Source: Bacteroidales bacterium (lineage in GTDB: Bacteria; Bacteroidota; Bacteroidia; Bacteroidales; UBA932). From it: a stretch of DNA of 41,168 nt. Shown here piece by piece: positions 18,636 to 24,722 of the stretch (positions are counted from its first letter, which is position 1; each line of letters opens with the position of its first letter). The stretch covers positions 1-41,168 of the forward strand of contig JAFRRF010000004.1 in NCBI GenBank assembly GCA_017428245.1, given 5' to 3'. The notes under the pieces are model-generated. The model had not been told where the DNA came from and did not search any database. It saw only the letters and a program-made list of their open reading frames with translations. A program made the position numbers and the translations under genes.

Positions 18636-19581
18636 TGCGCACCGTCTTAGCGTATTCTTCGGGAGAAATGTCCGGATTGAGGAAGTTCCAGGGATTGACC
18701 TGGACGCCGCGGTAGAGCACCTCGTAATGCAGGTGCGGGCCTGTCGACAGACCGCTGCTGCCGAGCTTGCCGATCTTGTCACCGCGAATGACGATCTGCC
18801 CCGCGATCACCTTGATTTCCTGAAGATGGGCATATCGCGTCTTGTAGCCGAAACCGTGGTCGATCACGATCACGTTGCCGTAGCCCGAAAAGTTGACCTC
18901 CGTGCTCTCCACCACCCCGTCGCCCGTGGCATAGACGTCCTGGCCCGCAGGTCCGGCCAGGTCGACGCCCTCGTGAAAGACAATCTCCTGGCGGATGGGG
19001 TGGAAACGTGCGCCGAAGGGACTGGTAAGCTGCACCGTCTTGGGATTGACAGGATAGATCGACGGGATGCAGGAGGCCATGTCTCCGGCCCGTGCGGAAT
19101 AGATCTTCACATCGTCGAACGAACGCGACTGGACGTAGGCCATCCGGGTAAGCTGGTCCACCCGTCGGGCGGCAAGCGTCATCAGGAACTGATGGTCGAG
19201 GCCAAGATACGTCTCGTACCGGTCTTCTCCGCCGAGCGGGGCTTCGCGCACATCGTTCCCAAGCTCTTCCATACCGAACACAGGGCGGTAGATCAGGTTG
19301 TCGCGACGGGAAAGGTCAAGCAAGGCCGCATACTGGTCTTCCGTCCGGTTCGAGAGCAGCATAAGCTGCTCGGTCAGCACGCGGTTGCGGCGCGTCATCC
19401 ATCTTTCCTTCGGCGTGGCAAGGTGCCAGACCCGGGAGGAAAGAAAGAAAAAGAGCAGGAAGCAGGCCAGCCCGGCAAGCAAAACCGCGCCCGTTCTGTA
19501 GAGCGCCGCCCGGGTGGATCTGCGGTCTATCTCGTAAGATTTCGTCTGTTCGTTGAAGATATATTTTTTCTCGCCAACCAT
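18628..19581 (-). CDS. M23-family peptidoglycan endopeptidase, membrane-anchored
   Basis: 317 aa from ATG 19581. The upstream TTG at 19611 lies inside the promoter and is rejected. Cytoplasmic start (EKKYIFNEQTKSYE), one membrane helix (about 33-52), a coiled-coil stalk, and a C-terminal LytM domain with all motifs intact: SPFGARFHPI, HEGVD (His203, Asp207), YAHL and PHLHYEV (His283, His285). It probably cuts peptide cross-links in peptidoglycan, or activates other hydrolases, at the periplasmic face of the inner membrane. First gene of the 15-gene run down to 7723. Confidence 0.92.
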   Translation of the reverse strand: MVGEKKYIFNEQTKSYEIDRRSTRAALYRTGAVLLAGLACFLLFFFLSSRVWHLATPKERWMTRRNRVLTEQLMLLSNRTEDQYAALLDLSRRDNLIYRPVFGMEELGNDVREAPLGGEDRYETYLGLDHQFLMTLAARRVDQLTRMAYVQSRSFDDVKIYSARAGDMASCIPSIYPVNPKTVQLTSPFGARFHPIRQEIVFHEGVDLAGPAGQDVYATGDGVVESTEVNFSGYGNVIVIDHGFGYKTRYAHLQEIKVIAGQIVIRGDKIGKLGSSGLSTGPHLHYEVLYRGVQVNPWNFLNPDISPEEYAKTVRNG

Positions 19582-19608
19582 CAGCGTGGATCCGGACACA
19601 TATCTTTG

Positions 19609-19616
19609 CAAAATTA
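19609..19616 (-). promoter_or_regulatory. Candidate -7 element of the M23-dnaB-rnf operon
   Basis: TAATTTTG on the minus strand fits TAnnTTTG, 27 nt upstream of ATG 19581. No TTG stands at the expected -33 distance, so support is moderate. It is the only such element seen ahead of the 15-gene run. Confidence 0.45.
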
Positions 19617-19639
19617 CGGAAAAATACCCGGAAAAACAC

Positions 19640-19647
19640 TATTTTTG
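19640..19647 (+). promoter_or_regulatory. Candidate alaS -7 element
   Basis: TATTTTTG ends 26 nt before the alaS ATG. A second match, TATCTTTG at 19601-19608, lies further upstream; which is used is undecided because neither has a clean -33 TTG. Confidence 0.45.
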
Positions 19648-19673
19648 TGCCAAATTACTAGAATTACGCATCT

Positions 19674-22289
19674 ATGACAGTCAAGGAAATCAGGAAGACC
19701 TTTACGGATTTCTTCGCTTCAAAAGGGCACGTGATCGTGCCTTCCGCCCCGATGGTGGTCAAGAACGACCCCACGCTGATGTTCACCAACGCCGGAATGA
19801 ACCAGTTCAAGGACATTTTCCTGGGCAACGCCCCGGCAAAGGCGACACGGGTGGCAGACAGTCAGAAATGCCTGCGTGTCAGCGGAAAGCACAACGACCT
19901 GGAAGAGGTCGGCCACGATACATACCACCACACGATGTTCGAGATGCTCGGCAACTGGAGCTTCGGCGATTATTTCAAGAAAGAGGCGATCGCCTGGGCC
20001 TGGGAACTGCTGACCGAAGTGTACAAGCTTCCAAAGGACCGGCTCTACGCCACGGTCTTCGAAGGCTACGCCCCCGACGGCCTGTCGGCCGACACCGAAG
20101 CCCGTGACTACTGGCTCCAATATCTCCCGGCCGACCGCGTGCTGGAGGGCAACAAGCACGACAATTTCTGGGAAATGGGCGACACCGGTCCCTGCGGCCC
20201 TTGCAGCGAGATCCACATCGACCTGCGCGACGACGCCGAACGGGCCGCCGTTCCCGGCGCGCAGATGGTCAACCAGGGCCATCACCTGGTCATCGAGATC
20301 TGGAACCTGGTGTTCATGCAGTTCAACCGCAAGGCCAACGGCTCGCTGGAACCGCTGCCGGCCAGGCACGTCGACACCGGAATGGGGCTCGAGCGCCTGT
20401 GCATGGCCATCCAGGGCAAGAAAAGCAACTACGACACCGATGTCTTCACCGGTATGATCGACGCCATCTCGCGTCTGAGCGGCGTGGCCTACGACCCGGA
20501 CGGCCAGGTGGGCGTGGCGATGCGCGTGATCGCCGACCACATCCGCGCCATCAGCTTCTCCATCACCGACGGACAGCTGCCCAGCAACGTGAAGGCCGGT
20601 TATGTCATCCGCCGCATCCTGCGCCGGGCCGTGCGTTATGGTTATACCTTCCTCGGCCTGAAGGAACCTTTCCTGTGCCGGCTCGTGCCGCAGCTGATCG
20701 CCGACATGGGCGAGGCTTACCCCGAACTCGTGGCGCAGGAGCAGCTCGTCACACGGGTCATCCGCGAAGAGGAGGAAGCTTTCCTCCGCACGCTCGACAA
20801 AGGCATCCGCCTGATGGACAACATTATGGAGAAGAGTCGCGAAAGCAAGGTCATCGCCGGCGTCGATGCCTTCACGCTCTATGACACCTACGGATTCCCG
20901 ATCGACCTGACCGAACTGATCGCCGCCGAGAACGGATTCACCGTCGATATGGAAGGCTTCGGCGTGGAACTGGGCAAGCAGAAGGAACGCGCCCGCAACG
21001 CCACGGCCGTGGAAAACGGGGACTGGGTGGAGCTGCAGCCGTTCACCGAGTGTGAATTCCTGGGCTACGACGTCCTGGAAGCGGAAGCACGGCTGATGAA
21101 ATACCGTACCGTCAAGGCCAAGAACAAGGAATTCATCCAGCTGGTATTCGACCGCACCCCGTTCTACGGGGAGATGGGCGGCGAAATCGGTGACACCGGC
21201 AGCATCACCACGCCCGACGGCGGGACGGTCCGCATCCTCAACACCATCAAAGAGAACAACCTGACGATCCACCTGGCAGAGCGCATCCCCGAGCAGACCG
21301 ACGGCATCTTCCTGCTCACGGTCGACTCCGCACGCCGGCAGAAGATCGCCAACAACCACACCTGCACCCACCTGCTGCACCAGGCGCTCCGCGAGATCCT
21401 GGGCCCGCACGTGGAACAGAAAGGCTCGTTCGTCGGCGACCAGTACTTCCGCTTCGACTTTTCGCATTTCGAGAAGCTGGGCGACGACAACATCGACCGC
21501 GTGGAACGCCGCGTCAACGCTCTGATCCGCAAGAACTATCCGCTTTGTGAAAAACGCGACGCCACGATGGAAGAGGCCCGCGCCGAGGGTGCGATGGCCC
21601 TCTTCGGCGAAAAATACGGCGACCGCGTCCGCGTAGTCCGCTTCGGCGACAGCGTGGAACTGTGCGGCGGCTGCCACACCAGCGCCACCGGCACTATCGG
21701 CTTCTTCAAGATCACGTCCGAATCGGCCGTGGCGGCCGGCATCCGGCGCATTGAAGCCGTCACGGGCCTTGAAGCCGAGATGGCGGTCGATGTGATGGAG
21801 AACGCCCTTCGCGCCGCAAAGGCCTTCTTCAACAACGTCCCCGACCTGACCGGCGCCATCCACAAAATGATTGAGGAGAACGCGGACTACAAGAAGAAGA
21901 TGGAGGAAATCGTCCGTGAACGCACCGTCCTGCTCAAGCGCGACCTGTTGAGCCGCGCCCGCGAGACCGGCGGACGGCGTCTGGTGGTCATCGACAACAG
22001 CGTCGATCCGCAGATGCTCCGCAACGCGGCGTTCATGCTCCAGAACGAAACGCAGAACCTGGTCATCGCCGCCGCTTACGAGGCCGGCGGCAAGCCGCAG
22101 CTGCTGCTGATGTACTCCGCCGATCTGGTGCAAGCCGGCAAGAACGCCCAGGCCGACATCAAGGAGGCCGCCAAGTGTATTCAGGGCGGCGGCGGCGGAC
22201 AGCCGGGCCTGGCCACGGCCGGTGGCAAGAATCTTGCGGGACTCAAAGACGCTCTCGAGAAGCTGATCGCCTCCGCGACCACCCTGTAA
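19674..22289 (+). CDS. alaS: Alanyl-tRNA synthetase
   Basis: 871 aa, full length. It charges tRNA-Ala and edits misacylated Ser or Gly. Class II catalytic domain (1-about 440) with motif 1 near [14 protein letters not shown] and motif 2 region [17 protein letters not shown]; the DTGMGLERL motif 3 is clear. The editing domain has zinc ligands His562 and His566 (HTCTH) and Cys664/His668 (CGGCH). A C-Ala domain ends with the glycine-rich [15 protein letters not shown] block. The LptF-Fmt fusion gene begins 3 nt after the stop, so the two are probably co-transcribed. Confidence 0.98.
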
Positions 22290-22292
22290 CGG

Positions 22293-24722
22293 ATGAAGAA
22301 ACTCGACCTTTACCTGATCAAGAAATTCGTAGGCCCCTTCATTGTGGTCTTCGTCATCGTGGTGTTTGCCCTGTCCCTGCAGTTCATCTGGCAATACATC
22401 AACGAACTGGTCGGCAAGGGCCTGAGCTTCGGCGTAATCATGGAGTTTATGGGATGGGCGGCCTGTACGCTCTTCCCCAACGAGATTCCACTGGCCACCC
22501 TGCTCGCTTCGATCATGACGCTCGGCGGGCTGGGCGAACGCAACGAACTGCTGGCGATGAAAGCGGCCGGCGTTTCGCTGATGCGGATCCTCACTCCGCT
22601 GATGATCATCTCCGTAGGCATCACCATCGCGGCTTTCTTCACGGCCGACCGCCTGGTACCCTACGCCTACAACAAAGTCTATACGCTCCGGGCCGACATT
22701 TTGCGCACGCGCGATGAGATCAAGATTCCGACCGGCATCTTTTACGACGGCATCGAAGGCTACATCCTCCGCGTGGACGAGCGCAACGAGGAGACGGATA
22801 TGATGTACGGCCTGATCATCTACGACCATACCGCCAACAACGGCAACAACAATATGACCGTGGCCGACAGCGGCCGGATCGAAATCACGCCCGACAAACG
22901 GAACCTCATCTTCAACCTTTACAACGGCTGCTCGTACAACGAGAGCAATTCGATGACCTTCCGCGACACGACGCTCGAACTCAGCCGGCTCCGCTTCGAC
23001 GAACAGCAACTTATCATCGCGCTCGACAACTACCAGTTCCAGCGCTCCGAGAGCGACAACTTCAGCGACGAACTCAAAGCGCTCGGCATCAAACGCCTGC
23101 GCAACGACCGCGATTCCATCGGCCATCAGCTCGACTCCCTGGCCCAGCGTCAGTTGCCGCGGTTTATGAGTACGATGGGGCTCAATTACCTCTACCAGCT
23201 CGACACGATCCGCAAGAGCAGCGATTTCATCGGGGATTTCCCGACCGACAGTCTGCGCAACACCTTCACGCCCGAACAGGAAAAGCGGGCACGGCGCGCT
23301 GCCATGAGCAAAGTGGAAATGGGACGGGAGCAACTCAACAACTTCAGCCGGGAAACCATCCACGACGCCACGATGATCCGGCGCATCGACATCGAGTCGT
23401 TCATCAAGTTCACCCTATCGCTCTCCTGCCTGCTGTTCTTCTTCGTGGGAGCGCCGCTGGGCGCCATCATCCGCAAGGGCGGCCTCGGTACGCCGGTCAT
23501 CATCTCGATCTTCTTCTATCTGATCTATTATATCATCGACATCATCGGGCGCAACCTGTCCAAGAGCGGTGCGCTGGCCCCCTGGCAGGGCACGCTGATC
23601 TCCACGGCAGTCCTGCTGCCCATCAGCATCCTGCTCACCCGCAAGTCCACACAGGACTCCTCGCTGTTCAATCCGGAAACTTACAAGGAATTCTTCCGGC
23701 GCATCGGCAAATGGATTTCCAAACGGTTCCACCGCTTCTTCAATCTCTTCCGCAAGGGCGGCGGACGCATCCGCATCGTCTATATGGGTACGCCCGATTT
23801 CGCCGTGGCGCCGCTTGAGAAGATTCTGCAGGCCGGCTACGAAGTGGCCGCCGTGGTCACCGCCGTCGACAAGCCGTCCGGGCGCGGCCTGACGATGAAC
23901 GAAAGTGCCGTCAAAAAGTATGCGGTTGCACACGACATCCCCGTCCTGCAGCCGGAAAAGCTCAAGGACCCCGCATTCCTCGAACAGCTCGCCGCCCTGA
24001 AGGCCAACCTGTTCGTAGTGGTGGCCTTCCGTATGCTGCCCAAGGAGGTCTGGCAGATGCCTTCCCTGGGCACGTTCAACCTCCACGCCTCGTTGCTGCC
24101 GCAGTACCGCGGCGCGGCTCCGATCAACTGGGCCATCATCGGCGGCGAGAAATTCACGGGCGTGACCACCTTCTTCCTCGACGAACAGATCGACACAGGC
24201 AAGATCATCTTCCAGGAGTCCTGCCCCATCGAAGAATACGAAGACGCCGGCGACCTCCACGACAAACTGATGGTCCTGGGTGCCGACCTGGTGCTCAAGA
24301 CCGTCGACGCCATCGAAAACCACCGCGTCAAGCCTTACGAACAGACCCAGGACTTCCGCCGGGCCCTTCGTCTCGCCCCGAAACTCACCCGCGACAACTG
24401 CCACATCGACTGGACCCGCAGCGCCCGCGACATCAGCCTGCTCATCCGCGGTCTGAGCCCCTACCCGTCCGCCTGGACCACCCTGGTCAAGGAAGACGGC
24501 ACGTCCCTGGGCGTCAAGCTCTACGAAAGCTATGTCGTACGGACCGAAGATGACGGAACGCCCGCCGGCACCATCACCACCGACCATAAGACCTGGCTGG
24601 AGGTCCGATGCGGCAAGGATGCCCTGCGCATCCAGAACCTCCAGTTGTCCGGCAAGAAGCGGATGGATATCGCCCCGTTCCTCCTGGGCTTCCGCGAACC
24701 GGAAAAGTATCGGTTCGAATAA
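22293..24722 (+). CDS. fmt: Fusion: LptF/LptG-family permease + methionyl-tRNA formyltransferase
   Basis: One uninterrupted 809-codon frame. Residues 1-450 are an LptF/LptG permease: helices about 10-35, 55-80 and 95-120, a periplasmic beta-jellyroll (about 125-365), then helices about 371-395, 400-420 and 430-448. This half would move LPS from the inner membrane with LptB and LptC. A basic linker (450-492) leads into a complete Fmt from about 493: MGTPDFAV, catalytic Asn596 and His598 in NLHASLLPQYRG, Asp634 in QIDTG, and the C-terminal OB domain. Fmt formylates Met-tRNA for initiation. The Fmt half has no start codon of its own ahead of its first beta strand; the only nearby Met (498) lies inside that strand. 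Both LptF termini are cytosolic, so Fmt would sit at the membrane. An assembly error is possible but not suggested. Confidence 0.9.
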   Translation: MKKLDLYLIKKFVGPFIVVFVIVVFALSLQFIWQYINELVGKGLSFGVIMEFMGWAACTLFPNEIPLATLLASIMTLGGLGERNELLAMKAAGVSLMRILTPLMIISVGITIAAFFTADRLVPYAYNKVYTLRADILRTRDEIKIPTGIFYDGIEGYILRVDERNEETDMMYGLIIYDHTANNGNNNMTVADSGRIEITPDKRNLIFNLYNGCSYNESNSMTFRDTTLELSRLRFDEQQLIIALDNYQFQRSESDNFSDELKALGIKRLRNDRDSIGHQLDSLAQRQLPRFMSTMGLNYLYQLDTIRKSSDFIGDFPTDSLRNTFTPEQEKRARRAAMSKVEMGREQLNNFSRETIHDATMIRRIDIESFIKFTLSLSCLLFFFVGAPLGAIIRKGGLGTPVIISIFFYLIYYIIDIIGRNLSKSGALAPWQGTLISTAVLLPISILLTRKSTQDSSLFNPETYKEFFRRIGKWISKRFHRFFNLFRKGGGRIRIVYMGTPDFAVAPLEKILQAGYEVAAVVTAVDKPSGRGLTMNESAVKKYAVAHDIPVLQPEKLKDPAFLEQLAALKANLFVVVAFRMLPKEVWQMPSLGTFNLHASLLPQYRGAAPINWAIIGGEKFTGVTTFFLDEQIDTGKIIFQESCPIEEYEDAGDLHDKLMVLGADLVLKTVDAIENHRVKPYEQTQDFRRALRLAPKLTRDNCHIDWTRSARDISLLIRGLSPYPSAWTTLVKEDGTSLGVKLYESYVVRTEDDGTPAGTITTDHKTWLEVRCGKDALRIQNLQLSGKKRMDIAPFLLGFREPEKYRFE

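Follow-up and report, generated by a model that had tools for sequence, protein, structure and literature searches.

In-frame fusion of an LptF/LptG-family permease with methionyl-tRNA formyltransferase in Bacteroidales of the family UBA932

Introduction

Methionyl-tRNA formyltransferase (Fmt) is normally a free soluble enzyme made from its own start codon. In a 41,168-nucleotide stretch of DNA from a Bacteroidales bacterium (contig JAFRRF010000004.1 of assembly GCA_017428245.1; hereafter the window), it forms the second half of a single open reading frame (ORF) whose first half belongs to the LptF/LptG family, the permeases of the LptB2FG lipopolysaccharide (LPS) exporter. One would not expect a membrane transporter subunit to end in a cytosolic enzyme of translation. 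Is the junction real, how did it come about, and does the cell make use of it? An earlier note, made from the letters alone, had proposed the fusion and knew of no described LptF-Fmt protein; within the open-licence PMC literature, we likewise found no description of one.

The fusion is genuine. We judge it likely that it is fixed, that it arose by loss of the lptF stop codon in a packed lptF-fmt pair, that Fmt is consequently a domain tethered to the inner membrane, and that the arrangement is mainly tolerated. In several genera of one animal-gut bacterial family, the fusion is the norm. The window's genus is Candidatus Cacconaster, the name that the available part of PMC8957277 gives to the GTDB genus Bact-11 (family UBA932, order Bacteroidales); a 600-base stretch of genus loci is identical to records of Candidatus Cacconaster caballi (L069, L022) and Bact_11 (L059, L009).

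Features of the fused protein

The frame (Table 1) contains both families by Pfam: LptF_LptG (PF03739) at residues 7-450, with 233.1 bits against a cut-off of 27.9, followed by Formyl_trans_N at 494-664 and Formyl_trans_C at 697-800. The permease half falls below the NCBIfam equivalog cut-offs for LptF (TIGR04407; 140 vs 230 bits) and for LptG (118 vs 240 bits), and "LptF" is therefore used here as a family-level name only. Thus, of the earlier assignment of this half to LptF/LptG, family membership holds, and the narrower name LptF is putative. By topology, the C-terminus of an LptF/LptG permease is cytosolic.

The likeness to LptF and LptG extends from the Pfam family to the helix pattern and periplasmic beta strands of an AlphaFold model and to the predicted coupling helix, where L80-GERN-E85-L86-x-A88-M89-xxx-G93 agrees by eye with the LptFG consensus; in the available text of PMC5082905, that consensus carries Glu and Gly in the TM2-TM3 loop. 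The differences are the C-terminal enzyme and the equivalog scores, and solved relatives match weakly by sequence (best E 2.9e-10). The permease had been described as six-helical: the model does have six long helices (2-40, 61-82, 96-138, 327-392, 399-424, and 430-454), but in a region of low confidence, and hydropathy gives four separate strong peaks in this half. For comparison, LptF of Brucella and Agrobacterium has had a fluorescent protein placed on its cytoplasmic N-terminus, according to the portion of PMC9938171 at hand. LPS export together with LptB is the predicted function of this half.

The formyltransferase half is complete, as the earlier note had it. Both Pfam domains are present, the NCBIfam fmt equivalog (TIGR00460) is exceeded (241.1 vs 201.5 bits, residues 494-803), and model residues 490-809 align to E. 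coli Fmt 1-314 (2fmt_A), that is, from its first residue, with the two-domain Fmt fold; when the whole model was compared with known structures, the matches listed were all to this half, and the LptF half gave none. N596, H598, and D634, which we take to be the catalytic residues of Fmt and which had been reported intact, are invariant in all 39 aligned proteins (alignment A1). Formylation of Met-tRNA-fMet is the predicted activity of this half, and no second Fmt was found in the window's own genome. The same genome holds two peptide deformylase matches, L244 (contig C28) and L245 (contig C26), one of them inside a 345-codon open frame.

The start codon of the Fmt part

Unlike E. coli Fmt (1fmt/2fmt) and the fmt of unfused relatives, the Fmt half in the window lacks a start codon of its own. 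The earlier note had found the eight codons before Met498 clear; this was too modest, as no in-frame ATG, GTG, or TTG occurs within 30 codons before it. Met498 itself lies inside the first beta strand of the Fmt half (494-499 in the model), where it had been placed.

We scored a start-like codon as an in-frame ATG, GTG, or TTG 4-15 codons upstream of the Met498 position. Such a codon is present in 19 of 20 unfused relatives (18 ATG); in the remaining one, an ATG lies at position 19. For the fused genes that come from other genera or from unassigned loci, the count is 22/35 (13 ATG). Fused genes of the window's genus have one in 8/28 (2 ATG, both at position 15) and none in 20/28. Forty further fused genes, all of genus g22 (L246-L285), have one in 33 cases (29 ATG, 22 of them at position 11) and none in 7. 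These look like stages that lead from separate genes, through a fused gene with a relic or still-used start, to a fused gene whose start is lost. The series of separate genes, fused genes with an internal start, and fused genes without one is a natural record of operon neighbours becoming one protein, and it makes the value of tethering Fmt testable. In g22 genes with an internal ATG, fused and free Fmt may come from one gene.

The linker

Residues 461-487 are helical in the model, and the predicted local confidence (pLDDT) is below 50 at 481-490. Within the fused protein, the hydrophobic moment peaks in the 18-mers that begin at 468-470. Unfused relatives have the same kind of basic amphipathic tail (moments 0.32-0.73 vs 0.37-0.75 in fused proteins; 32 rows, 15 unfused), so the tail was probably inherited from LptF, and a linker specially made for the fusion is unsupported. 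Linker sequence and junction peptides differ between fused genera.

The linker evolves as coding sequence under purifying selection. Across its 33 codons, the ratio of nonsynonymous to synonymous polymorphism (pN/pS) is 0.26 in 16 near-clade genomes (column bootstrap on the first 8 rows: 0.14-0.42), compared with 0.23-0.46 for permease parts and 0.14-0.36 for Fmt parts in the same clade; it is 0.38 in 11 more distant members. Linker length is identical in 26 of these 27 rows.

Distribution of the fusion

The same junction is common among related genomes, where the earlier note had suggested looking for it. A stop-free match across the junction was found in at least 147 of the 299 genomes sampled from the family, with at least 37/40 in the window's genus (g1), 61/62 in g22, 24/26 in g15, 18/19 in g6, 3/3 in g16, 1/1 in g3, 1/1 in g5, 1/3 in g2, and 1/3 in g23. 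Matches were counted by hand from match lists and had to reach residue 560 or beyond; 147 is a lower bound, and it does not include G175 and G227, where the stop-free match stops short of that limit, at residue 559 and residue 518, respectively. The three uncounted genomes of the window's genus are 51-93% complete: G231 matches only weakly, in the Fmt half (E 3.5e-7), G274 has no match, and G262 has none among the matches listed. With one ORF, both Pfam families, and this recurrence, the claim of a single in-frame fusion stands.

Outside the family, no full-length stop-free match was found at the E cut-offs used, below which a very distant fusion could fall. The full query matched 7 of 393 order genomes at E <= 1e-135. 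Four of these matches are full-length and stop-free, all in the window's family; of the other three, one is a genome of another family with adjacent genes and two stops, and two match by the permease half only. At E <= 1e-115, the window's own genome was the single match in a phylum sample of 395. With the Fmt query in the 393 Bacteroidales genomes, frames longer than 500 aa occurred, among the matches listed, only in the window's family. Both samples include a few members of that family.

Unfused relatives and origin

In many unfused relatives, lptF and fmt are neighbours, and fmt has its own start codon; where such pairs were examined, the stop codon of lptF either overlaps the start of fmt or is no more than about 40 nt from codon 493. 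LptF adjoins Fmt at 12 of 17 unfused loci; at the other 5 (g7, g8, g9, g19, g24), there is none in the fetched flank. Two genera are mixed: G059 is fused and G023 and G042 are unfused in g23, and G001 is fused and G026 and G044 are unfused in g2. Unfused neighbouring pairs with an fmt start are likely the starting state. The earlier note would have taken close relatives that have separate genes and an ATG in front of fmt as grounds for giving up the fusion; such relatives do exist, in other genera of the family, and the fusion is not overturned by them. Two unfused loci have features of their own: G020 (g20; L107/L214) encodes an LptF with a C-terminal extension of about 100 extra residues before fmt, and L151 (G310), from another family of the order, has lptF and fmt adjacent, so that the arrangement extends beyond the window's family.

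A tree of LptF plus Fmt requires four changes of state, of which well supported branches force three (59 rows; 66 rows). The approximately unbiased (AU) test rejects fused rows as one clade (p 3e-39 with 40 rows; p 6e-4 with 39 rows, g23 left out), and a single clade of fused genes was discarded for this tree. A tree of AlaRS, which is an outside marker yet a neighbour of the lptF and fmt genes, requires three changes (55 rows), with g12 and g18, both unfused, nested in a 35-row clade that is mostly fused; it is compatible with a single main fusion, a single split in g12/g18, and an independent fusion in g23. The rows are a selection (for example, 9 genus loci) that excludes partial loci and also G044, whose LptF is in two frames. 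The simplest histories involve either two fusions and a single split or at least three fusions; apparently, the fusion arose more than once.

We therefore arrive at the following scheme. In a compact alaS-lptF-fmt operon, the lptF stop codon would have been lost, bringing lptF and fmt into one frame, either repeatedly or with subsequent splitting. The native basic amphipathic tail of LptF would have become the linker, and decay of the fmt start codon would have followed in the window's genus. The sole Fmt found in the genome would be produced as the C-terminal, cytosolic domain of a permease in the inner membrane, staying uncut and working while tethered, at roughly one copy per LptF. Such a fusion would be mainly a tolerated consequence of operon packing, hard to undo after start loss, rather than a means of coupling formylation to LPS export.

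Alternative explanations

That an assembly or sequencing error joined two genes has almost no probability. Most of the genomes examined are in many contigs, but the junction recurs at the counts given above in genus and family, the frame is retained through indels, the window has no fmt start, and the linker is under purifying selection. The sequencing frameshift that the earlier note had feared is thereby ruled out, although the single fused g23 case (G059, one draft genome) could, taken alone, still be an error. It is also very improbable that the second half is a formyltransferase of the ArnA kind, with both halves thus serving LPS. ArnA, the bifunctional formyltransferase of lipid A modification, does place a formyltransferase domain within an LPS-connected fusion protein; there, the domain is N-terminal beside a dehydrogenase-like domain, the protein is not a permease, and it acts on a sugar nucleotide. 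The window protein passes the Fmt cut-off and is far from the ArnA equivalog (NF005998, for the bifunctional protein; 162.4 vs 777 bits), of which the formyltransferase part alone matches (profile 9-281 of 649). Fmt also gives the best structure matches, and the genome would otherwise be left with no Fmt that we found.

A further question is whether tethering is real and whether it is useful, and several points weigh against a tethered, merely tolerated Fmt. Its proteolytic release is possible; the ATG that 29/40 g22 genes have 4-15 codons before Met498 lies near the expected ancestral start, and free Fmt may be made from it; the model (mean pLDDT 69.0, pTM 0.43) places the halves unreliably relative to each other; gains and losses are not distinguished by the tree counts, and one early fusion with several splits, though costlier, is compatible with the trees; and repeated appearance within one family could point to selection, not tolerance. 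Free Fmt released by internal initiation or by proteolysis before residue 490, leaving no functional tethering, is unlikely. The in-frame ATG of many g22 genes and the low model confidence at 481-490 would suit it; the clear 30 codons in the window and the 20/28 genus genes without a start-like codon would not, and no shared cleavage site was visible by eye among the genus-specific junction peptides, for which no motif search was run. A functional link of formylation to LPS export is possible, but it is rather doubtful that the fusion is kept to place Fmt, or the supply of formyl-Met-tRNA, by the LPS exporter or the translocon, tying membrane initiation to envelope growth. Multiple transitions into or out of fusion, a near-constant linker length, a conserved basic-aromatic helix in the genus, and the 7/40 g22 genes without an internal start, though 33/40 keep a start-like codon, are consistent with such coupling. 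However, repeated fusion is easy because many unfused relatives already have the two genes side by side; the amphipathic tail, too, occurs in unfused relatives; linker sequence varies between fused genera; and the AlaRS tree allows a split inside the fused clade. We find improbable the broadest proposal, that in a whole gut Bacteroidales branch the LPS exporter at the inner membrane would be the sole site of initiator-tRNA formylation, so that initiation and outer-membrane growth share one protein and could be regulated together.

Genomic neighbourhood

The fusion probably shares an operon with alaS (Table 1). The earlier note had named a separate lptG as the partner of the fused permease; a second family permease is indeed encoded in the window as a candidate partner, and by family-level assignment both permeases are candidates for either role.

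Table 1. Coordinates of the fused gene, its parts, and neighbouring genes in the window
Feature	Position	Strand	Details and basis
Fused ORF	22293-24722	+	ATG start, 809 codons, no internal stop (ORF list; DNA read)
LptF/LptG-family permease part, residues 1-460	22293..23672	+	Pfam PF03739 at 7-450; helices in model
Predicted coupling helix TM2-TM3, residues 77-93 with E85, G93	22521..22571	+	By eye against the LptFG consensus in the available text of PMC5082905
Linker, residues 461-490: basic amphipathic helix, then short flexible stretch	23673..23762	+	Model, hydrophobic moment, pN/pS
Methionyl-tRNA formyltransferase part, residues 492-809, both domains	23766..24719	+	Pfam, NCBIfam, model, structure match
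Span of catalytic N596, H598, D634	24078..24194	+	Invariant in 39-row alignment
alaS	19674..22289	+	Directly upstream of the fusion, 3 nt gap
Second LptF/LptG-family permease, candidate partner	31523..~32590	-	Family-level assignment

A 316-aa ORF at 18727-19677 (+), without a Pfam match, overlaps the alaS start by 4 nt and possibly belongs to the same operon as alaS and the fusion.
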